Positions 1,100 to 11,416 of a stretch of DNA of 64,000 bases are shown in pieces (within the stretch, counting starts at the first letter, position 1; every line of letters begins with the position of its first letter). Source of the stretch: Agreia sp. COWG (lineage in GTDB: Bacteria; Actinomycetota; Actinomycetes; Actinomycetales; Microbacteriaceae); NCBI RefSeq assembly GCF_904528075.1, contig NZ_LR882035.1, forward strand, positions 1,798,001-1,862,000, in the 5' to 3' direction. The notes under the pieces were generated by a model. The model was not told the DNA's origin. It saw only the letters and a program-made list of their open reading frames with translations, and made no database searches. A program made the position numbers and the translations under genes.

Positions 1100-2521
1100 T
1101 CAGGCGCTGGGAGCGGCGGGGGCCTGGGCGACAGGTCGCGCAGACTTCGATGCGTTTACGATCCCGATTCCCGAGATGACACCGCCGACGATGAGCAGTA
1201 CCCCCGTGGTCAGCGCCGCCCGGTGAAATCCGGAGACGTCGAGCGAGGGTCCGACGATGAGGCCGGCGGATGCCACGGCGACGAGCCCGGCGACCCTCGA
1301 GACCGCATTGTTCACGGCCGAGGCGATGCCGGCCCTGGCGGGCTCGATGGAGCCGAGGATGGCCGAAGTGAGCGGGGCGACCGTCAGAGTCATGCCGAAG
1401 CCGAACACGATGATGCCCGGAAAGACCTGCGTCCAGTAGTCGGCCTCGGCGCCGACGCGCGTGAGAAGGAGAAAACCGATGCCGGCGATGATCGGCCCGG
1501 CGAACATGAAGAGGCGAGGGCCGCGCACTCCGGCGAGCCTGCCGACCTGGGTCGACAGCACGATGCTGATGACGGTGGTCGGAAGCGTGCTGAGCCCAGC
1601 CAGCGTCGCCGAGTACCCGGCCACCTGCTGCAGGAAGACGGCGAGCAGGAAGGTGCCGAGCGAGAGCGCGCCGTAGACGAAAACGGTCGACACATTGCCC
1701 ACCGAGAAGTTGCGCACCCGAAAAAGCGAGAGCGGCATCATGGGCTGGGCGGTGCGTCGCTCGTGCCGGATGAACAGCGCGAACGAGGCCACGCCGACGA
1801 TGGCTGGCACGAAGATGATCGGGCTCGTCCAACCGAAGTGGGACTGCTCGATGAGGGCGAAGACGGGAAGGCCGAGCCCGACGATTCCGAGGACGGCCCC
1901 GCGAATGTCGATGCGCGTGCCCGCCGGTGCAGCGTGATCGTGCTGCAGCCGTCGCAGCAGAACCAGCGTCACGGCGATGGGCACGATGTTGATGGCGAAG
2001 ACCAGTCGCCACGAGAGCAGGTCGACGAGCAGGCCTCCGATCAGGGGGCCGGCGAGGAACGCGGTACTCGTCCATGCCGTCCACGAGCCGATCGCCTTGG
2101 CCTGGGCCGCTCCCCGGAAAGTCGACAGGATCAAGGCGAGCGAGCTCGGCACGAGAAGAGCGCCGGCGACTCCCTGCAGCGCGCGCGCCGCGATCAACAC
2201 GCCCGCCGACGGGGCGACCGCGCAGAGCACGGAGGCGATGCCGAAACCGATCAACCCCCAGAAGAGCACGCGCTTGCGGCCGAACGCGTCCGACAGCGAC
2301 CCCGCGAGAAGGATGATCGATCCGAGCGTGATCAGGTAGGCATCCGTCACCCACTGCTGGGTGGAGATTCCCCCGCCGAGCTCTCGGGTGATCGAGGGCA
2401 AGGCGACCGTGATCACCGAGCCGTCGAGGAAGGCGATGAACGACGAGAGGATGGCGACGACAAGAACCACTCGCCCGAGCGACGCGCCGGGGCTGTCTTC
2501 GTTACGGGGACTGTTCTTCAC
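1100..2521 (-). CDS. MFS transporter, DHA2 (EmrB/QacA-like) drug exporter
   Basis: Predicted proton-driven multidrug efflux permease of the inner membrane. The protein is almost entirely hydrophobic segments, consistent with the 14-helix DHA2 architecture. It begins with the typical first helix FIAFLDGSVITVALPSI and carries the loop motif GRKRVLFWG between helices 2 and 3. The start is taken as the GTG at 2521 (473 residues) because a TTAGCT box ends six bases upstream, the same leaderless arrangement as other genes here. The upstream in-frame ATG at 2596 would add 25 hydrophilic residues unlike the family. It is divergent from the NRPS gene and could export a small product or simply a drug; substrate unknown. 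Confidence 0.87.
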   Translation of the reverse strand: MKNSPRNEDSPGASLGRVVLVVAILSSFIAFLDGSVITVALPSITRELGGGISTQQWVTDAYLITLGSIILLAGSLSDAFGRKRVLFWGLIGFGIASVLCAVAPSAGVLIAARALQGVAGALLVPSSLALILSTFRGAAQAKAIGSWTAWTSTAFLAGPLIGGLLVDLLSWRLVFAINIVPIAVTLVLLRRLQHDHAAPAGTRIDIRGAVLGIVGLGLPVFALIEQSHFGWTSPIIFVPAIVGVASFALFIRHERRTAQPMMPLSLFRVRNFSVGNVSTVFVYGALSLGTFLLAVFLQQVAGYSATLAGLSTLPTTVISIVLSTQVGRLAGVRGPRLFMFAGPIIAGIGFLLLTRVGAEADYWTQVFPGIIVFGFGMTLTVAPLTSAILGSIEPARAGIASAVNNAVSRVAGLVAVASAGLIVGPSLDVSGFHRAALTTGVLLIVGGVISGIGIVNASKSARPVAQAPAAPSA

Positions 2522-2606
2522 ATGCCAAGCTAACCCCACCGCGTGCAGATCGACCCCGTTCGGCGCCGAGCACTTTTTCGTTAACCTCTCGTCCACCTCA
2601 CCCTTC

Positions 2607-2687: not shown

Positions 2688-5600
2688 GTGACCGACTCCC
2701 CCGCCCTCCGCGGACTCCTTCTGGGCGGCGCACGCACGCCCCCGCCGCGCACCCTGGTCGACATCCTTCGCGAGACCGCGGCTGAGCATCCGGCCGCCGC
2801 GGCCCTCGCCGACGCCGACGGCACCGTCAGCTACCGCGAGCTGCTGCGACTCGTCGGTGCGGCGGCCGTGTCGCTCTCGGTCGCAGGCGTGCGTCGCGGA
2901 GATCGCGTCGGCATCCGCATTCCCTCCGGCGGACGCACGCTCTACGTGTCGATCCTCGCCGTGCTGTTCCTCGGTGCGGCCTACGTGCCGGTCGATGCCG
3001 ACGACCCCGAAGAACGCGCCGAGCTGGTCTTCGGCGAGGCGGATGTCGTGGGCTGGGTCGGCGCAGACGGCACGCTCGTGCCGCGCGCGTCGAAAGACGG
3101 CTCGATTCGCGTGCACTCGCGCGAGCCGGTCTCGACGGAGCCTCTCCGCGCGGGGACCGGAACCATTCCCACGCTCGGCTCCCCCGAGCTCGACGACGAT
3201 GCGTGGATCATCTTCACCTCGGGTTCCACCGGCGTTCCGAAGGGTGTCGCCGTCACTCACCGCTCGGCGGCCGCCTTCGTCGACGCCGAGGCCCGCATGT
3301 TTCTGCAGCAGGAGCCCCTCGAGCCCGGCGATCGGGTGCTCGCCGGACTGTCTGTCGCCTTCGACGCGTCGTGCGAAGAGATGTGGCTGGCCTGGCGGCA
3401 CGGCGCGTGCCTGGTGCCGGCGCCGCGATCGCTCGTGAAGTCCGGCGCCGACCTCGGCCCATGGCTCATCGCCCACGGAATCACCGTCGTCTCCACCGTT
3501 CCCACCCTCGCCGGCCTCTGGCCCGCCGAATCGCTCGAGAACGTGCGGCTGCTCATCTTCGGCGGAGAGGCGTGCCCACCCGAGCTCGCGCAGCGACTTG
3601 CCACCGACGGCCGAGAGCTCTGGAACACCTATGGGCCGACCGAGGCCACGGTCGTCGCCTGCGGCGCGCTGCTCGATGGTTCAGCCCCCGTTCGCATAGG
3701 CCTGCCCCTCGACGGCTGGGACCTCGCGGTCGTGGATGCCGCCGGCGACCCCGTCGCCGACGGCGAGGTCGGCGAGCTGATCATCGGCGGAGTGGGCCTC
3801 GCCCGCTACCTCGACGCGTCGAAAGACGCCGAGAAGTACGCCGCGATGCCGAGCCTCGGGTGGCCGAGGGCCTACCGCAGCGGCGACCTCGTGCGCTTCG
3901 ACCGCGAGGGCCTCGTCTTCCAGGGCCGCGCCGACGATCAGGTGAAACTCGGCGGCAGACGCATCGAGCTCGGCGAGATCGAAGCGGCCCTGCAAGCTCT
4001 GCCCGGAGTGCACGGCGCCGCAGCCGTGGTGCAGACCTCCGGCGCAGGGAACCAGGTTCTCGTGGGCTACCTGGCGCTCGATCCCGGGGTCGATGAGTCC
4101 GACTTCGATCTGCGGACGGCCGCAGACCACCTCAGGCAAGAGCTGCCCGCGGCGCTCGTCCCCGCCCTCGCGGTGGTCGAGAGCATCCCCACCCGCATCT
4201 CCGGCAAGGTCGACCGCGCCGCGCTCCCCTGGCCGCTGCCTGGCAGCGCCTCGTCGGGCGGCGCCACGCTCGAGGGCACGACCGGATGGCTGGCGTCCCT
4301 CTGGACAGACGTGCTCGGCGCCACCGTCGGCTCGGCCACAGACGACTTCTTCGCCCTCGGCGGAGGAAGCCTCGCGGCCGCCCAGCTCACGAGCATTATC
4401 CGCGCCCGCTTTCCCGAGGCGCGCGTCTCCGACATCTACGACCACCCCCGCATCGGGGCGCTGGCAGACGAGCTCGATTCCCGCGTGCCGGCCGTCGTGG
4501 CGGAGCCTCGGCTGGTGAAGCCCACACCGCTCAGCACCCGATGGGCGCAGACGCTGCTCGGCATCCCCCTGCACGTGATCGTGGGCGCCCGCTGGAGCGT
4601 CTATCTGCTCGCGGCGAATGCGGTGCTCATCGCGTTCGCGGGCCTCGACTGGCTGCCCGCAGTCTCGTGGTGGTGGCTGATCGTCGGCTTCATGATTCTG
4701 GTCACCCCGCTCGGCCGGATGGCCGTCTCCGTCGTCGCCGCCCGGCTGCTGCTGCGCGGTGTCACCCCGGGCAGCTATCCCCGCGGCGGCCAGGTTCACC
4801 TGCGGCTGTGGCTGGCCGAACAGGTGGCCAGCCTGGTGGGAGCCGCGAGCCTCGCCGGTGCCCCGTGGATCGCCTACTACGCCCGGGCTCTCGGAGCCAC
4901 GGTCGGAGAGGGGGTCGACCTGCACTCCCTTCCTCCCGTCACCGGAATGCTCAAGCTCGGCGCGCGCGTCGCCATCGAGCCCGAAGTCGATCTGTCGGGG
5001 TGGTGGATCGACGGCGATCTGCTTCGCATCGGAGCGATCTCGATCGGGGCGGATGCGACCATCGGCTCCCGCAGCACCATGCTGCCGGGGGCTCGCGTCG
5101 GCCGCGGCGCCGAGGTCGCGCCGGGCTCGTCCGTATCCGGTCGCGTGCCCGGCGGGGAACGCTGGAGCGGGTCGCCGGCCCAGCGGCTCGGCAAGGCGCG
5201 GCCGGGGTGGCCGGCAGAACGGCCGCCGCGCGCATCCGGCTGGGTGGCGGCCTACGGCGCCGGAAGTGTGCTTCTCTCGCTGCTGCCGCTCGCGTCGCTC
5301 GCCGTCGGTGCGCTCATCACCGGTCTGCTCGTGAGAGGCTCCACCTCGCTCGGCGAGCTCGCATTGCGTGCATTCGCCTCCGTTCCTCTGGCCACGCTCG
5401 GCGCGGGAATCGTCTTCGCCGCGCTCGTCGTCGTGAGCGTCAGGCTCCTCGGTCTCGGGCTCGCACCGGGCTACTACCCCGTGCGTTCTCGGGTCGGCTG
5501 GCAGGTGTGGGCTACCGAACGTCTGCTCGACCTCTCGCGAACGATGCTGTTTCCGCTGTACGCCAGCCTCTTCACCCCGGTGTGGCTGCGCCTGCTCGGG

Positions 5601-6620
5601 GCGAAGGTGGGAGTGAACGTCGAGGCATCGACGGTTCTGCTGCTTCCCGCCATGACCACGATCGGCGACCACGCGTTTCTCGCCGACGACACCATGGTCG
5701 CGTCGTACGAGCTGGGCGGGGGCTGGCTGCGCATCGACGAGGCCAAGATCGGCCGGCGCGCGTTCCTCGGCAACAGCGGCATGACAGGGCCGGGCCGCAC
5801 TGTTCCGAAGAACGGCCTCGTCGCGGTGCTCTCGGCGACGCCGAAGAAGGCCAAGTCGGGATCGTCGTGGCTCGGCAACCCCCCTGTTCGCCTGCGCAGG
5901 GCCGTGGCGGAGTTCGACGAGGGGCGCACATACAAGCCGAAGAGGCGACTGCGCGTCGCGCGCGCGCTCTGGGAGACCGGTCGCGTCGTTCCCGTCATGG
6001 TGTCCACAGCCATCGGTCTCGGAGTGCTTCTCGCCCTCGAAGTGATCCTCGAGACGCTCGGCCTCGTCGCTGCGATCGCCCTCTCCGGTGTCGTCATGCT
6101 CGCCGCCGGCGCGGTGGCCGCTGGCATCACGACGATCGCGAAGTGGACGATCGTGGGCCGCATCACCGCGCGAGAGCATCCGCTGTGGTCGTCATTCATC
6201 TGGCGTAACGAGGTCGCGGACACCTTCGTCGAGATGGTGGCCGCGCCGTGGTTCGCCCGCGCCGCGACGGGAACTCCGGCTCTCGCCTGGTGGCTGAGCT
6301 CCCTCGGTGCGCGCATCGGTGAGGGAGCGTGGATCGAGTCGTACTGGCTGCCGGAGGCCGATCTCGTGTCGCTCGGAGCCGGCAGCACCGTCAACCGCGG
6401 CTGCGTGGTGCAGACCCACCTCTTCCACGACCGCGTCATGTCCCTCGACGCCGTCGAACTCGCCCCGGGCGCGACGCTCGGACCGCACAGCGTCATTCTG
6501 CCGGCGGCTCGCATCGACTCCGGAGCCACCGTCGGCCCCGCATCGCTCGTCATGCGCGGCGAGGTGGTGCCCCCGGGAAGTCGCTGGACGGGCAATCCGA
6601 TCGGGCCGTGGAATACTTGA
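2688..6620 (+). CDS. Pls/PosA-family non-ribosomal peptide synthetase (epsilon-poly-L-lysine synthetase-like)
   Basis: Single-module membrane NRPS of 1310 residues, essentially the length of Streptomyces Pls. The adenylation domain is complete: A3 loop TSGSTGVPKG near residue 177, A4 FDASCEEMW near 225, A5 NTYGPTE near 313, A7 YRSGDLVRFD, A8 GRADDQVKLGGRRIELGE and A10 lysine in SGKVDR near 507. A carrier domain follows with the phosphopantetheine serine in GGGSL (Ser561). The rest alternates hydrophobic segments with three soluble hexapeptide-like domains, as in Pls, where they act as tandem condensation-like domains that polymerise one amino acid. By-eye pocket residues are D-A-E-S-I-G-T-V-V-K, close to a published lysine code. 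The GTG start follows GGGAG by seven bases. The stop lies nine bases before the M1 peptidase start. Product identity is inferred. Confidence 0.9.
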   Translation: MTDSPALRGLLLGGARTPPPRTLVDILRETAAEHPAAAALADADGTVSYRELLRLVGAAAVSLSVAGVRRGDRVGIRIPSGGRTLYVSILAVLFLGAAYVPVDADDPEERAELVFGEADVVGWVGADGTLVPRASKDGSIRVHSREPVSTEPLRAGTGTIPTLGSPELDDDAWIIFTSGSTGVPKGVAVTHRSAAAFVDAEARMFLQQEPLEPGDRVLAGLSVAFDASCEEMWLAWRHGACLVPAPRSLVKSGADLGPWLIAHGITVVSTVPTLAGLWPAESLENVRLLIFGGEACPPELAQRLATDGRELWNTYGPTEATVVACGALLDGSAPVRIGLPLDGWDLAVVDAAGDPVADGEVGELIIGGVGLARYLDASKDAEKYAAMPSLGWPRAYRSGDLVRFDREGLVFQGRADDQVKLGGRRIELGEIEAALQALPGVHGAAAVVQTSGAGNQVLVGYLALDPGVDESDFDLRTAADHLRQELPAALVPALAVVESIPTRISGKVDRAALPWPLPGSASSGGATLEGTTGWLASLWTDVLGATVGSATDDFFALGGGSLAAAQLTSIIRARFPEARVSDIYDHPRIGALADELDSRVPAVVAEPRLVKPTPLSTRWAQTLLGIPLHVIVGARWSVYLLAANAVLIAFAGLDWLPAVSWWWLIVGFMILVTPLGRMAVSVVAARLLLRGVTPGSYPRGGQVHLRLWLAEQVASLVGAASLAGAPWIAYYARALGATVGEGVDLHSLPPVTGMLKLGARVAIEPEVDLSGWWIDGDLLRIGAISIGADATIGSRSTMLPGARVGRGAEVAPGSSVSGRVPGGERWSGSPAQRLGKARPGWPAERPPRASGWVAAYGAGSVLLSLLPLASLAVGALITGLLVRGSTSLGELALRAFASVPLATLGAGIVFAALVVVSVRLLGLGLAPGYYPVRSRVGWQVWATERLLDLSRTMLFPLYASLFTPVWLRLLGAKVGVNVEASTVLLLPAMTTIGDHAFLADDTMVASYELGGGWLRIDEAKIGRRAFLGNSGMTGPGRTVPKNGLVAVLSATPKKAKSGSSWLGNPPVRLRRAVAEFDEGRTYKPKRRLRVARALWETGRVVPVMVSTAIGLGVLLALEVILETLGLVAAIALSGVVMLAAGAVAAGITTIAKWTIVGRITAREHPLWSSFIWRNEVADTFVEMVAAPWFARAATGTPALAWWLSSLGARIGEGAWIESYWLPEADLVSLGAGSTVNRGCVVQTHLFHDRVMSLDAVELAPGATLGPHSVILPAARIDSGATVGPASLVMRGEVVPPGSRWTGNPIGPWNT

Positions 6621-6628
6621 GGCCGCCC

Positions 6629-7963
6629 ATGCCGAACCGACCAGACGACTCCACTCTCGGATCCCTGTCCACCGGGGACAGCTACGTTCCGTCGAGCGGC
6701 AACGGCGGCTACTCGGTCGTCTCCTACGATCTCGAGCTCGACTACCGAGTGTCGACGAACAGGCTCACCGCCACCGCGGTGATCTCGGCTGTGTCCACCC
6801 GTGACCTGAGCCGATTCAGCTTCGATTTCTCGGGCCTGGTCGCGACGCGAGTGCTCATCGACGGCACGGCCGCGGCGAAGACCACGGCATCAGCGCGCAA
6901 GCTCACGATCCATCCGGCGACCACAATCCGGGCAGGCGAAGAATTCGTGGTCACCGTGCGCTACGCCGGAGCGCCCAAGCCCGTGCGGAGTCCTTGGGGC
7001 GAGCTCGGCTGGGAGGAACTGAGCGACGGTGTGCTGGTCGCATCGCAGCCGTCGGGCGCTCCGAGCTGGTTTCCCTGCAACGACCACCCGAGCGCCAAGG
7101 CCCTGTTCAGCATCCGGGTGACGGCCGAATCGCCCTACGCGGTGCTCGCCAACGGCCGACTCGTCTCGCGTGTGCGTCGGGCGAGCCGAACGACGTGGGT
7201 CTACGAGACGTCCGAGCCCATGGCCACCTACCTCGCCAGCATCCAGATCGGCCTCTACAAAGAGGTCGCCCTCGCCTCGTCGCCCGTTCCGCAGAAGGCG
7301 CTCGTACCCGCCTCGCTGCTGCAGCGCGCCCAGAAGGACTTCGCCCAGCAGGCCGAGATGCTCGGTCTCTTCTCTCGACTGTTCGGCGACTACCCGTTTT
7401 CCGAGTACTCGGTGGTCGTGACCGACGACGTGCTGGAGATTCCCATCGAGGCGCACGGCTTCGCGGTCTTCGGACGCAACCACATCGACGGCCTCGGAGG
7501 CTCAGAGCGGCTCGTCGCGCACGAGCTCGCCCACTCCTGGTTCGGTAACAGTGTCACGGCCACGACGTGGAAAGACATCTGGCTGCACGAAGGGTTCGCC
7601 TGCTACGCCGAGTGGCTGTGGTCGGAGGAGTCAGGCGGGCCGTCGGCAGACAGGCTGGCGCACCAGCACTGGGGGCGACTTTCCTCGCTGCCGCAGGACC
7701 TGATCATCGGAGACCCGGGGCCCGCGCTGATGTTCGACGACCGAGTGTACAAACGCGGCGCCTTGACCCTGCACGCCCTTCGCACCGAACTCGGAGACGA
7801 CGCCTTTTTCGACATGCTCACGTCGTGGACAACCGAGAACAGATTCGGCAACGTCACCACAGAGAGCTTCTACCTGCACGCGCAGGAACGATCGACCCTC
7901 GACCTCGGCCCGCTTTTCGAGGCCTGGCTATTCAGCAGGCGTCTTCCCGCGCTTCCCCACTGA
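6629..7963 (+). CDS. M1-family zinc aminopeptidase, probable poly-lysine-degrading enzyme (PldII-like)
   Basis: Gluzincin aminopeptidase of 444 residues. The zinc site HEXXH-X18-E is exact: HELAH at residues 298-302 and the third ligand Glu321 in LHEGFACYAEW. The N-terminal part has the beta-sandwich typical of M1 enzymes, but the large C-terminal helical domain of PepN is absent, as in short bacterial M1 proteins. The ATG is preceded by TTGAGG overlapping the NRPS stop, so the two are one operon. In Streptomyces a zinc aminopeptidase gene follows pls and its product hydrolyses the polymer, so product turnover or self-protection is the likely role. No signal peptide is evident. Its last 32 bases overlap the end of the PPTase gene on the other strand. 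Confidence 0.9.
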   Translation: MPNRPDDSTLGSLSTGDSYVPSSGNGGYSVVSYDLELDYRVSTNRLTATAVISAVSTRDLSRFSFDFSGLVATRVLIDGTAAAKTTASARKLTIHPATTIRAGEEFVVTVRYAGAPKPVRSPWGELGWEELSDGVLVASQPSGAPSWFPCNDHPSAKALFSIRVTAESPYAVLANGRLVSRVRRASRTTWVYETSEPMATYLASIQIGLYKEVALASSPVPQKALVPASLLQRAQKDFAQQAEMLGLFSRLFGDYPFSEYSVVVTDDVLEIPIEAHGFAVFGRNHIDGLGGSERLVAHELAHSWFGNSVTATTWKDIWLHEGFACYAEWLWSEESGGPSADRLAHQHWGRLSSLPQDLIIGDPGPALMFDDRVYKRGALTLHALRTELGDDAFFDMLTSWTTENRFGNVTTESFYLHAQERSTLDLGPLFEAWLFSRRLPALPH

Positions 7964-8564
7964 TCGTCTCGACGTCGGCCGCTGTACCGCTCCCGTCGAT
8001 CAGCTCCACGGTCACGGGGCCGTCACCGAGTACGGCCAGGCTCAGCATCATCGAGTCCTCGTCCCAGGGCACGTCGACGATCATGGCCGGCACGGGCGTG
8101 CCCTGCGCGAGGTCGACCCGCACCAGATCGAGCCGAACACCCTGACCGGTGGCCTTCAGGTAGGCCTCCTTCCGACTCCACAGGCGCGTGCGGAGTGCCT
8201 CGCGCGACAGAGGCGACTCGTCGTCGATGAGATCTCGCTCGGCGACAGAGAACGCCACCTCATCGACCCTGGCCCGGGAGACGGCGACGACCGATTCGAG
8301 GTCGACGCCGATGTCTCGCGGTCCCTCGGCGACCGCCGTGGCGACGCGCCCCCCGGCAGAGCTCTTGCTCACGACGAGCGGCTGTCCTCCGTGTGCCGTC
8401 GGCGAGAGGATGCGCGGCTTTCCGTGGGGGCGACCGCAATCGGGGCAGCTGCTGTCGATCACGACGTCGGACGCCTCGACCCCGGCGAAGGCTGCGACGG
8501 CGCGTTCTAGAGGCCGCGAGAGAGTAGCATCCTCGATGCGCACGACGACCCGCGTGGGCTTCAC
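7932..8564 (-). CDS. 4'-phosphopantetheinyl transferase, Sfp type
   Basis: Transfers phosphopantetheine from coenzyme A to the carrier-domain serine of NRPS/PKS proteins. The two family signatures are present: GVDLE (magnesium-binding Asp and Glu) and WSRKEAYLKATGQG, containing the W-x(3)-E-x(3)-K motif. 210 residues, usual for the family. An upstream CPDCGRPHGKP stretch matches the conserved GKP region. The GTG start overlaps the OsmC stop as GTGA, so it is translationally coupled to OsmC. Its position against the Pls-like gene makes the Pls carrier domain the obvious substrate, though it may serve others too. Confidence 0.92.
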   Translation of the reverse strand: MKPTRVVVRIEDATLSRPLERAVAAFAGVEASDVVIDSSCPDCGRPHGKPRILSPTAHGGQPLVVSKSSAGGRVATAVAEGPRDIGVDLESVVAVSRARVDEVAFSVAERDLIDDESPLSREALRTRLWSRKEAYLKATGQGVRLDLVRVDLAQGTPVPAMIVDVPWDEDSMMLSLAVLGDGPVTVELIDGSGTAADVETISGEAREDAC

Positions 8565-9025
8565 CGGGCGAGCGGCTCGTGGTGCACGTCGAACGACACC
8601 GAGTTCGCGATGAAGCACTTGGCTCTTGCTTCGGCGTGCAGGCTCTGCGCAAGCTCCGCCTGAGTGGCATCGGCGAGGGTGACGACCGGATGCAGCGTCG
8701 CCGAGGTGAACCGGCCGCCGCCGCTCCGATCGAGCGCGAGGACGCCCGTCGCCTGGTCGCTGTAGTCGGTCACGACGACCCCGTGCAGCACTGCCGCGTG
8801 CAGATACGACAGCATGTGGCACTGGCTGAGGGAGGCGAGCAGCATCTCCTCGGGATTCCAGCGTTCCGCATCGCCGTGGAAGATGCGATCGGCGCTGCCA
8901 GCGATCTCGTGCTTTCCGTGCGCTCGCACCAGATGTTCTCGGCCGTAGTCACGATAGCCGCTGGTGCCCGTGCCGCGATTTCCAAGCCACTCTACGGTCA
9001 CCGTGTAGGAATGCTGCGCTTTCAC
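8561..9025 (-). CDS. OsmC/Ohr-family peroxide reductase-like protein
   Basis: Small alpha/beta thiol protein of 154 residues. Family members reduce organic hydroperoxides using two conserved cysteines; here they are Cys in LSQCHMLSYLH and Cys in ARAKCFIANSV, both in the expected context. The Glu of RWNPEEMLLAS is also conserved. Start: GTG six bases downstream of a TAGGCT -10 box, with no ribosome site, so leaderless. It overlaps the PPTase gene by four bases, which suggests co-expression but gives no obvious functional link. Confidence 0.9.
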   Translation of the reverse strand: MKAQHSYTVTVEWLGNRGTGTSGYRDYGREHLVRAHGKHEIAGSADRIFHGDAERWNPEEMLLASLSQCHMLSYLHAAVLHGVVVTDYSDQATGVLALDRSGGGRFTSATLHPVVTLADATQAELAQSLHAEARAKCFIANSVSFDVHHEPLAR

Positions 9026-9031
9026 ACGACG

Positions 9032-9037
9032 AGCCTA
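9032..9037 (-). promoter_or_regulatory. -10 box, leaderless promoter of OsmC
   Basis: TAGGCT on the minus strand ends six bases before the GTG at 9025, placing the transcription start at or next to the start codon. It shares the 52-base intergenic space with the divergent gabT promoter. Confidence 0.6.
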
Positions 9038-9062
9038 GCCCGGGCCCGGCGGGCGACGACGA

Positions 9063-9068
9063 TAAACT
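9063..9068 (+). promoter_or_regulatory. -10 box of gabT
   Basis: TAAACT ends nine bases before the gabT ATG at 9078. No purine-rich ribosome site lies between them, so the message should be leaderless or nearly so. Confidence 0.5.
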
Positions 9069-9077
9069 CGACGCATC

Positions 9078-10430
9078 ATGACAGACACCCTCACTTCCTC
9101 GTTCACCGTCGCCCAGGAGCGCAAGATCGTCACGGCGATCCCCGGCCCCCAGAGCATTGCGCTGCACGAGCGACGCCTGGCCGTGGTGCCCGTGGGCGTC
9201 GGAACGGCATTGCCGATCTACATCGAGAGGGCCAACGGCGCCATTCTGGTCGATGCCGACGGCAATCAGTTCATCGACCTGGGCGCGGGCATCGGCGTGA
9301 CCACGGTCGGTCACACGTCGGCGGCCGTCATCGAGGCCGCCGCCGCTCAGCTGGGCAAGGTCACCCACACCCTGTTCACCGTCACACCGTACGAAGAATA
9401 CGTGAGGGTCGCCGAGCTGCTCGCCGAGCACACGCCCGGAGACTTCGCCAAGAAGACCGTGCTCGTGAACTCGGGTGCCGAGGCGGTCGAGAACGCGGTG
9501 AAGATCGCCCGCAAGTACACCCGGCGCACCGGTGTCGCCGTGCTGGAGCACGCCTACCACGGTCGTACCAACCTCACGATGGCCATGAACTTCAAGGCGG
9601 CCCCGTACTCCACCGGATTCGGACCGTTCGCGAGCGATGTCTACCGCGCGCCGAACTCGTACCCGTACCACGACGGCCTGTCGGGCGCCGAGGCCGCGGC
9701 CCGCACGATCTCGTACCTCGAAAAGACGGTCGGAGCCGTCGATCTCGCGTGCCTGGTCGTCGAGCCCATCCAGGGCGAGGGCGGATTCGTCGTTCCGGCC
9801 GATGGCTACCTGACGGCCCTGCAGGCGTGGTGCACGCAGAACGGCATCGTCTTCATCGCCGACGAGATCCAGAGCGGCATGGCCCGCACGGGCGCGTACT
9901 TCGCGAGCGAGCACTTCGGCCTCGTGCCCGACATGGTGCTGAGTGCCAAGGGCATCGCCGGCGGACTGCCGCTCGCGGGCGTCACCGGTCGCGCCGAGAT
10001 CATGGACGCCGCCCTCCCCGGCGGACTCGGCGGCACATTCGGCGGCAACCCGGTGGCGGCAGCCGCAGCCGTCGCCGTCTTCGGCCAGATCGAGCAGCAG
10101 AACCTGCTGGCCGAGGCCACCCGCATCGAGCAGACGCTCATCACGGGGCTCGAGGCACTGGCTGCGAAGTACGACATCATCGGCGAGATCCGTGGCATCG
10201 GTGCGATGATCGCCATGGAACTCGTGCAGCCCGGAACGGGCTCCACCACCAAGCAGCCCAACGCCGAGGCCGTGAACGCGATCGTCGCGCACGCCGCGTC
10301 GAACGGTGTGCTGGTCCTGAACGCGGGAACCTACGGCAACGTGATCCGGTTTCTGCCGAGCCTCGCCATCTCCGACGCCCTGCTCGTTGACGCGCTCAGC
10401 GTCATCGACGAGGCGATGGCCACGCTGTGA
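9078..10430 (+). CDS. gabT: 4-aminobutyrate--2-oxoglutarate aminotransferase
   Basis: PLP enzyme (class III, fold type I) that converts GABA and 2-oxoglutarate to succinate semialdehyde and glutamate. 450 residues, full length. Visible marks are the cofactor region VNSGAEAVENAVKIARKYT, the aromatic clamp HAYHGRTNLTMAMN, the catalytic DE pair in FIADEIQSGMARTG and the Schiff-base lysine in LSAKGIAGGLPLAG. Typical GabT start and end. It overlaps the following asparaginase start as GTGA, so nitrogen salvage from GABA and asparagine is probably co-transcribed. Other omega-amino acids could be substrates; no succinate-semialdehyde dehydrogenase is adjacent. Confidence 0.93.
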   Translation: MTDTLTSSFTVAQERKIVTAIPGPQSIALHERRLAVVPVGVGTALPIYIERANGAILVDADGNQFIDLGAGIGVTTVGHTSAAVIEAAAAQLGKVTHTLFTVTPYEEYVRVAELLAEHTPGDFAKKTVLVNSGAEAVENAVKIARKYTRRTGVAVLEHAYHGRTNLTMAMNFKAAPYSTGFGPFASDVYRAPNSYPYHDGLSGAEAAARTISYLEKTVGAVDLACLVVEPIQGEGGFVVPADGYLTALQAWCTQNGIVFIADEIQSGMARTGAYFASEHFGLVPDMVLSAKGIAGGLPLAGVTGRAEIMDAALPGGLGGTFGGNPVAAAAAVAVFGQIEQQNLLAEATRIEQTLITGLEALAAKYDIIGEIRGIGAMIAMELVQPGTGSTTKQPNAEAVNAIVAHAASNGVLVLNAGTYGNVIRFLPSLAISDALLVDALSVIDEAMATL

Positions 10431-11416
10431 CCTCGCCGCAGACCGCCGTGAGCGGCACCATGGGTGTCGACGAGGCGGTCGAGCTGGCCGTGCTCGAGCG
10501 CAGTGGGTTCGTTGAGTCGCGCCACGCGGGCGCGGCCGTTGTCGTGGGGCCGGATGGCGACATCCTCGAGCAGCTCGGCGATCCGTCCGCGCCCGTGTTT
10601 CCGAGATCGAGCCTCAAGCCGTTCCAGGCCCTCGCCGTGCGCGAGGCCGGCGTTCACCTGTCGCCCCTGCAGACGGCGCTCTCGATGGCGAGCCACGGGG
10701 GAACCTCTGCCCACGTCGACGTGGTGCGCAGCATCCTCGCCGAAGCAGCCCTCGGCGAAGACGACCTCGGCTGCCCGGCCGACTGGCCCGGCGCGCGATC
10801 GGCCCGCGACGAGGTCGTCCGGTCCGGTGGCGGGCCTTCCCGGCTCTACATGAACTGCTCGGGCAAACACGCCGCGATGCTGGTCGCCTGTGTGCAGAAC
10901 GGCTGGCCGACCGACGGGTACCTCGACCCCTCGCACCCGTTGCAGCAACGGGTCTCGGCACTGATCGAGCGCGAGACGGGTGAGCGCATCGCGGCATCCG
11001 GAGTCGACGGCTGCGGCGCCCCCGTTCACGCCATTTCGCTCGTCGCCTTGGCCCGCGGCGTCTCACGCATCGCGCAGCGACCCACCTCCGACGCCGAAGC
11101 CCTCGTCGACGCCGTGCTCGCCAATGGGTGGGCCGTCGACTCCCCCGGCGAGCAGAACACGCTCGTCATCGAGAGGCTGGGCCTGTTCGCGAAGCTCGGT
11201 GCTGAGGGAGTGATGGTCATCTCCACGACGTCGGGAACGGCCGTCGCCCTCAAGATTCTCGACGGCAGTCTGCGCACAGCCACCATCGTGGCGCTCGAGC
11301 TGCTCGTTCGAAACGGCGTTCTCGATCGCTCGGCACTCGACACACTGCTTCATGAGTTCGACCTCGATGTGCTGGGTGGCGGGGTTCCCGTCGGCCGCCT
11401 CCGCGTCACAGCCTGA
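10427..11416 (+). CDS. Asparaginase, Asparaginase_II (PF06089-type) family
   Basis: Predicted to hydrolyse L-asparagine to aspartate and ammonia. This 329-residue protein belongs to the actinobacterial/rhizobial thermolabile type, unrelated to the bacterial AnsA/AnsB fold. Diagnostic stretches are PRSSLKPFQALA, MASHGGTSAHVDVVRS, YMNCSGKHAAMLVAC and GVDGCGAPVHAISL, which include the conserved Ser-x-x-Lys and Cys residues. No signal peptide, hence cytoplasmic. The GTG start overlaps the gabT stop by four bases. Its 3' end overlaps the convergent FtsK-like gene by 11 bases, so no room for a separate terminator exists between them. Confidence 0.88.
   Translation: MTSPQTAVSGTMGVDEAVELAVLERSGFVESRHAGAAVVVGPDGDILEQLGDPSAPVFPRSSLKPFQALAVREAGVHLSPLQTALSMASHGGTSAHVDVVRSILAEAALGEDDLGCPADWPGARSARDEVVRSGGGPSRLYMNCSGKHAAMLVACVQNGWPTDGYLDPSHPLQQRVSALIERETGERIAASGVDGCGAPVHAISLVALARGVSRIAQRPTSDAEALVDAVLANGWAVDSPGEQNTLVIERLGLFAKLGAEGVMVISTTSGTAVALKILDGSLRTATIVALELLVRNGVLDRSALDTLLHEFDLDVLGGGVPVGRLRVTA

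Follow-up and report, generated by a model that had tools for sequence, protein, structure and literature searches.

Judged from sequence comparison, the locus at positions 2,688 to 8,564 of the window (the whole 64,000-nucleotide stretch of Agreia sp. COWG DNA that was analysed) is very probably an ε-poly-L-lysine (ePL) biosynthesis operon of the pls–pldII type, accompanied by a phosphopantetheinyl transferase (PPTase) that is probably dedicated to it. ePL is a natural antimicrobial polymer, and an industrial food preservative made with Streptomyces. The pls–pldII type is already known and common, and a Corynebacterium pls–peptidase operon whose product was proven has been in print since 2021. 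Three features are additions to the known picture: the synteny of the PPTase, an M1 peptidase without an export signal and a three-repeat model of the polymerase. A preliminary description had proposed a Pls-type poly-lysine locus with an M1 peptidase and a PPTase; the identical substrate pocket, an end-to-end match to TIGR02353 and the identity of the C-terminal part all support that proposal.

Gene order and boundaries

Reading frames, Pfam and NCBIfam agree that the three genes are real and lie where the preliminary description had placed them (Table 1). The sequence GGGAG occurs upstream of the pls start, at 2676–2680. An alternative start at 2625 was discarded because the alignment with the closest relative (L003) begins at 2688. 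The peptidase carries the HEXXH-X18-E site first reported. Eight bases intervene between pls and its start, which had been put nine bases later. The PPTase and M1 genes lie tail to tail and their 3′ ends share 32 bases. The PPTase does read on the opposite strand, from 8564 to 7932, and its PF01648 match (45 bits) is over the cut-off of 25, as expected of the Sfp-type enzyme first described. Its length of 210 residues also fits an Sfp-type enzyme, and its translation contains GVDLE and WSRKEAY, which we take to be Sfp-like motifs.

For comparison we used 80 named loci, the best 80 of 587 confirmed, so the sample leans to near relatives. A further 15 loci were picked by hand: five from a search of the class, five from one genus with two copies and five from the same genus as the window. 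The pls–M1 order is found in all 80 named loci and a PPTase in 32 of them, thus the three genes are not chance open frames. The Pls of Streptomyces albulus is represented by its solved A domain (7WEW) and by locus L097 (genome G677), whose Pls is 78% identical to 7WEW in that domain.

Table 1. Features of the locus and its neighbours (positions in the window)
Feature	Position	Strand	Details
DHA2-family MFS transporter, multidrug-type	1100..2596	-	divergent from pls; membership of the system doubtful
pls NRPS gene	2688..6620	+	1310 aa; GTG start 2688; stop 6618-6620
Adenylation (A) domain	2739..4244	+	residues ~18-519; 7WEW alignment
Pocket residues			D226 A227 E230 S269 I290 G292 T314 V322 V323 K507 = DAESIGTVVK
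Thiolation (carrier) domain	4287..4472	+	residues 534-595; PF00550
Polymerisation part	4488..6617	+	residues 601-1310; TIGR02353, AlphaFold model, hydropathy, PDB profile matches
C1 LbH domain	4845..5222	+	residues ~720-845
C2 LbH domain	5574..5927	+	residues ~963-1080; model secondary structure, weak PDB profile match
C3 LbH domain	6264..6599	+	residues ~1193-1304
Compact M1 zinc metallopeptidase gene, PldII-like	6629..7963	+	ATG 6629; 444 aa
HEXXH-X18-E zinc site	7520..7591	+	H298, E299, H302, E321; HEXXH at 298-302
Sfp-type 4′-phosphopantetheinyl transferase gene	7932..8564	-	210 aa; convergent with the M1 gene
OsmC-like protein, class III (4-aminobutyrate-type) aminotransferase, L-asparaginase II	8561-11416		follow the PPTase gene

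Substrate pocket and polymerisation domains of the synthetase

Pfam matched AMP-binding (residues 27–373), AMP-binding_C (430–507), PP-binding (534–595) and Hexapep (785–817) on the synthetase, bearing out the A–T–(membrane/hexapeptide) NRPS of 1310 residues first described. Neither a condensation nor a thioesterase domain was found by Pfam, and a canonical NRPS product was therefore dropped. The phosphopantetheine serine, Ser561 (codon 4368–4370), is conserved in the alignment. The best PDB chain for the A domain is 7WEW, from an epsilon-poly-L-lysine synthase (608 bits, 64–65% identity); the next best among the matches listed scores only 366.8 bits. The pocket DAESIGTVVK is identical in the window, 7WEW, all 80 named loci (best 80 of 587) and 12 of the 15 extra loci. 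Its positions were placed by the GrsA numbering. They are consistent with the PosA residues in the excerpts available of PMC10522769. The same excerpts associate Ala at the second pocket position with lysine, Met with ornithine and Phe with diaminopropionate or diaminobutyrate, while those of PMC8117764 judge Pls-like pockets a strong sign of lysine. With DAESIGTVVK in place, specificity for diaminopropionate, diaminobutyrate or ornithine was set aside. The pocket predicts the substrate and not the linkage.

Three paralogues from one genus (L102, L104 and L106; genomes G134, G071 and G187), each an additional member of the family in its genome, have the pocket DFECLSVVTK. The window protein is about 37% identical to them in the A domain and 24–26% in the C-terminal part. 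DFECLSVVTK has Phe at position 2, the mark of poly-diaminopropionate or poly-diaminobutyrate in the excerpted PMC10522769, but the pocket as a whole was matched with none of the verified enzymes. Two of the genomes, G071 and G134, have a PF01648 match some 5–8 kb from the terminal-domain match.

Could the locus encode a Pls/PosA polymerase of another homopolymer, such as poly-ornithine, poly-diaminobutyrate, poly-diaminopropionate or poly-β-lysine? The excerpts of PMC10522769 place enzymes for such polymers in the same family: PosA, the δ-poly-L-ornithine synthetase, shares the A–T–membrane domain architecture, and TIGR02353 passes the DFECLSVVTK paralogues too. The window pocket, however, equals that of Pls at ten of ten positions and differs from those of PosA (DMEHNGTVSK) and the poly-β-lysine enzyme (DGESISVVNK) (PMC10522769, excerpts). 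PosA, unlike the synthetase in the window, is described there as a single-gene operon. The low identity to the DFECLSVVTK paralogues in both parts of the protein, and the lack of an M1 neighbour in the 2.9–4.1 kb of sequence downstream of the three, point the same way. We consider another homopolymer improbable and retain ε-poly-L-lysine as the predicted product.

The family model TIGR02353 (Pls/PosA family NRPS) aligns over residues 620–1305 (model positions 2–695 of 695) with 716.8 bits against a cut-off of 423.1, a match that by itself cannot separate the products of the family, the DFECLSVVTK paralogues also being over the cut-off. The C-terminal part is 48.5% identical to that of L097, versus 24–26% for the three paralogues with the other pocket. 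An alignment of the C-terminal domains had been suggested as a check on the preliminary description; with TIGR02353 matched end to end and this identity to L097, the domains are of the Pls type. The AlphaFold model of residues 601–1310 has a mean pLDDT of 86.8 and a pTM of 0.89. In the model, this region consists of three repeats, each with a long helix pair, an amphipathic helix and a left-handed β-helix (LbH), and hydropathy gives at least one segment in every one of the three. Model secondary structure and hydropathy thus combine to give three tandem acetyltransferase-related domains between transmembrane helix pairs. Fold comparison covers mainly C1, whereas the folds of C2 and C3 are drawn from model secondary structure and weaker profile matches. 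No solved chain spanning a whole Pls was present among the best 60 PDB matches listed per search. C3 holds E1223, Q1242, H1244 and D1248, all common to both pocket types. H1244 (codon 6417–6419) is the only histidine in residues 601–1310 common to both and is inferred as a candidate catalytic base.

The M1 peptidase and the phosphopantetheinyl transferase

The M1 protein matches PF01433 and PF17900 over their cut-offs, and its zinc-site residues H298, E299, H302 and E321 are kept in all 93 aligned M1 proteins, that of the window included. Its best PDB match is a compact two-domain zinc metalloprotease (6a8z/6iff, 175 bits), which we take to be the M1 enzyme of Deinococcus radiodurans; we know of no link between that enzyme and a polymer. 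All 80 named loci (best 80 of 587) and all 12 extra loci with the lysine code have an M1 gene downstream of pls in the same orientation, versus none of the three DFECLSVVTK paralogues (2.9–4.1 kb of downstream sequence examined). In this sample the peptidase therefore accompanies the lysine pocket, although the control is small and confined to a single genus. In 75 of the 80 loci (best 80 of 587) no more than 1.5 kb separates the pls stop from the end of the M1 gene. In the other five (L018, L021, L027, L033 and L039, from Williamsia and Tsukamurella) it ends 1.9–3.5 kb after the stop, so something sits between the two genes there.

The M1 protein of L097, the locus whose Pls comes nearest to the S. 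albulus enzyme, served as a stand-in for S. albulus PldII; the window M1 is 44% identical to this stand-in. Export was judged from the mean hydropathy of 17 residues around the aligned start, a value below 1.0 counting as no segment. By hydropathy alone, 92 of 93 M1 proteins, including that of the window, have no N-terminal hydrophobic segment. The exception is L097, with a value of 2.09 (segment SRRGLLTAAAALPLGAAVL). This protein begins MSLRDRFACSRRGLLTAAAALPLGAAVLCA, which we take to be a twin-arginine-like (Tat-like) signal. Its signal suggests that the Streptomyces-type M1 is exported and that most others are not. An exported enzyme agrees with the excerpts of PMC9223678, in which S. albulus PldII lies at the exterior of the membrane and its repression gives longer polymer and lower tolerance. 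The window M1 resembles PldII but, lacking the hydrophobic segment, is predicted to be inside the cell. The window may differ from Streptomyces in the location of this enzyme, or hydropathy may have overlooked a route of export. For the polymer turnover first proposed for the locus, the sequence gives no support to an extracellular step.

The assignment of the PPTase to the synthetase draws on both the genome and the neighbourhood. At 99.98% completeness, the genome contains two PF01648 matches, a 134-residue open frame of AcpS size and the PPTase of the locus, and two PF00550 matches, a 99-residue open frame and the NRPS. Of the 38 Micrococcales loci (best 80 of 587), 32 have a PPTase in the 5 kb that follow pls, as judged by profile search; these are 19 of 24 from Microbacteriaceae, 12 of 13 from Micrococcaceae and the single Humibacillus locus. 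Families and groups are those we presume from the genus names of the 80 loci. All but one of the 32 genes are convergent. In five of the 24 Microbacteriaceae loci no PPTase was found within 5 kb downstream, and the one Micrococcaceae miss has just 1.9 kb of downstream sequence. Over all 95 loci the profile gave 38 matches, 33 of them within the 80, where the match in L058 lies upstream of pls; tblastn alone recovered a PPTase in 22 of the 80 (best 80 of 587). Among 150 genomes of the same family, 47 of the 59 that have a Pls/PosA gene over the cut-off show at least two PF01648 matches, compared with 13 of the 91 others (odds ratio 23.5, Fisher P 5e-16, a test that ignores kinship and counts any second PF01648 protein).

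These observations bear on a different reading, that the PPTase is an unrelated neighbour serving other carrier proteins. It is encoded on the opposite strand, and no PPTase was found next to pls in any of the 42 loci outside Micrococcales (best 80 of 587; one of the 42 has just 1.3 kb of downstream sequence). Among the family genomes, the 13 with two or more PF01648 matches and no pls, and the 12 of 59 with pls and a single match, also fit that reading. Yet the gene stays within 5 kb of pls in most Micrococcales loci, unlike the other neighbours in the window, and the genome offers one other carrier match, the 99-residue open frame. We regard an unrelated PPTase as unlikely, and the enzyme is probably dedicated to Pls in this genome. 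The literature searched, which most subscription papers lay outside, held no mention of a PPTase adjoining Pls.

Distribution, known systems and proposed mechanism

A Pls/PosA gene scored over the curated cut-off in 117 of 299 sampled genomes of the same family, and in the other 182 no match reached it. In all six genomes of the genus, that of the window counted, pls scores over the cut-off, and in the other five M1 and PPTase genes are retained next to it. Across the class, 95 of 394 sampled genomes match the 7WEW A domain at 1e-100. Four family genomes (G076, G250, G219 and G285) show split or partial terminal-domain matches, pointing to loss or to assembly breaks. The tree, which is without support values, broadly follows taxonomy, with Microbacteriaceae and Micrococcaceae as separate groups, the pattern that vertical inheritance would give. 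Agreia sp. VKM Ac-1783 and the genomes of the same genus fall into one group with the window protein. The DFECLSVVTK paralogues, on which the tree is rooted, lie apart on a long branch; no full-length verified Pls is included. The spread of the gene through Microbacteriaceae is wide and mostly looks like descent, which suggests that a cationic polymer is common in soil and leaf habitats. The product had been called not well known in Microbacteriaceae, which holds for the chemical product; the gene itself is present in 117 of 299 genomes and has published homologues.

Among the closest known systems is that of S. albulus, which shares the A–T–TM/LbH architecture (as published), the identical ten-residue pocket and a peptidase gene that comes immediately after pls in the same orientation. 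There, a single operon contains pls and pldII, which overlap by 4 bp (PMC4361855, available excerpts), whereas the window has the eight-base gap, its A domain is 64–65% identical and its M1 is without the Tat-like signal seen beside L097. The convergent PPTase after M1 is described here as a feature of the window side only. In the excerpts of PMC8117764, published in 2021, Corynebacterium variabile and related coryneform cheese and skin bacteria are non-filamentous actinobacteria, like the source of the window, with a pls–peptidase operon and a Pls-type pocket. The Corynebacterium operon gave ePL on expression in S. coelicolor, and pls homologues are reported in Microbacterium, Arthrobacter and others. 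Unlike the window Pls, those enzymes come mostly from other families; their product was shown by heterologous expression, and the excerpts do not mention a PPTase. From the same family come the clusters of two other Microbacteriaceae, both known from prediction only in the excerpts available: an antiSMASH epsilon-polylysine-like cluster in Subtercola endophyticus (PMC9287328) and, in Marisediminicola antarctica, an NRPS gene with a peptidase M1 gene after it, as in the window; the function of that cluster was left open (PMC6669644).

An intact but silent locus, whose genes are kept by descent while the polymer is not made under ordinary conditions, has a precedent. According to the same excerpts, C. 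variabile made no detectable ePL and its Pls was unseen in proteome data. The absence of ePL there also counts against the main reading, as does that in C. glutamicum given the C. variabile gene, which had no detectable ePL although the protein was expressed (PMC8117764). The gene is also dispensable in the family: 182 of 299 genomes show no match over the cut-off, and split or partial matches occur in a few genomes. Against this, the frame in the window is full length, the pocket, carrier and zinc-site residues are kept, and pls is retained in six of six genomes of the genus, the other five with M1 and PPTase. Silence appears very unlikely to us, and an operon for ePL synthesis is still the favoured reading.

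In the mechanism proposed for this operon, the PPTase would place phosphopantetheine on Ser561, probably its sole task in this genome. The A domain would then activate L-lysine with ATP and load the carrier. Joining of the lysyl thioester to lysine through the ε-amine would fall to the membrane-bound LbH domains, with C3 (H1244) most likely responsible. With what look like two membrane crossings per repeat, polymerisation would take place on the cytosolic face. The chain would be exported through the membrane part. The M1 peptidase, predicted to be cytosolic, would trim lysines from polymer remaining in or returning to the cell, for self-protection and possibly for length trimming. A cytosolic step conflicts with the presumed Tat-like signal of the L097 peptidase. 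It likewise conflicts with the placement of S. albulus PldII outside the membrane (PMC9223678, excerpts).

More tentatively, the Micrococcales ePL system might be self-contained, consisting of pls, a cytosolic polymer-editing M1 without export signal (unlike that of Streptomyces) and a PPTase with Pls as its only client. Polymerisation would then be carried out by the intramolecular LbH trio, acting like a carrier-protein-dependent acyltransferase of the LpxA/CysE type in which H1244 of C3 is the single catalytic histidine, and M1 would work at the same membrane face as synthesis. If the PPTase has Pls as its only client, polymer synthesis could be licensed by post-translational activation. 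Should M1 lie inside the cell in most lineages but outside it in the S. albulus type, the purpose of the degrading enzyme would become directly testable. A compact cassette from a non-filamentous relative that brings a PPTase of its own would be convenient for expression work, because lack of carrier modification is, we infer, one possible cause of silent expression.

The genes flanking the three-gene locus have a narrower distribution. The OsmC-like, aminotransferase (GabT) and asparaginase block is conserved in the Agreia-like genus (L003, L107–L111) and has few matches in the other named loci. Counted over the 80 loci (best 80 of 587) with weak matches included, OsmC and asparaginase occur once each, and the MFS transporter and GabT six times each. 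All four were dropped as parts of the system, being conserved in the genus with few matches beyond it. The MFS transporter, kept beside pls in the same six loci, could be an exporter or a chance neighbour.
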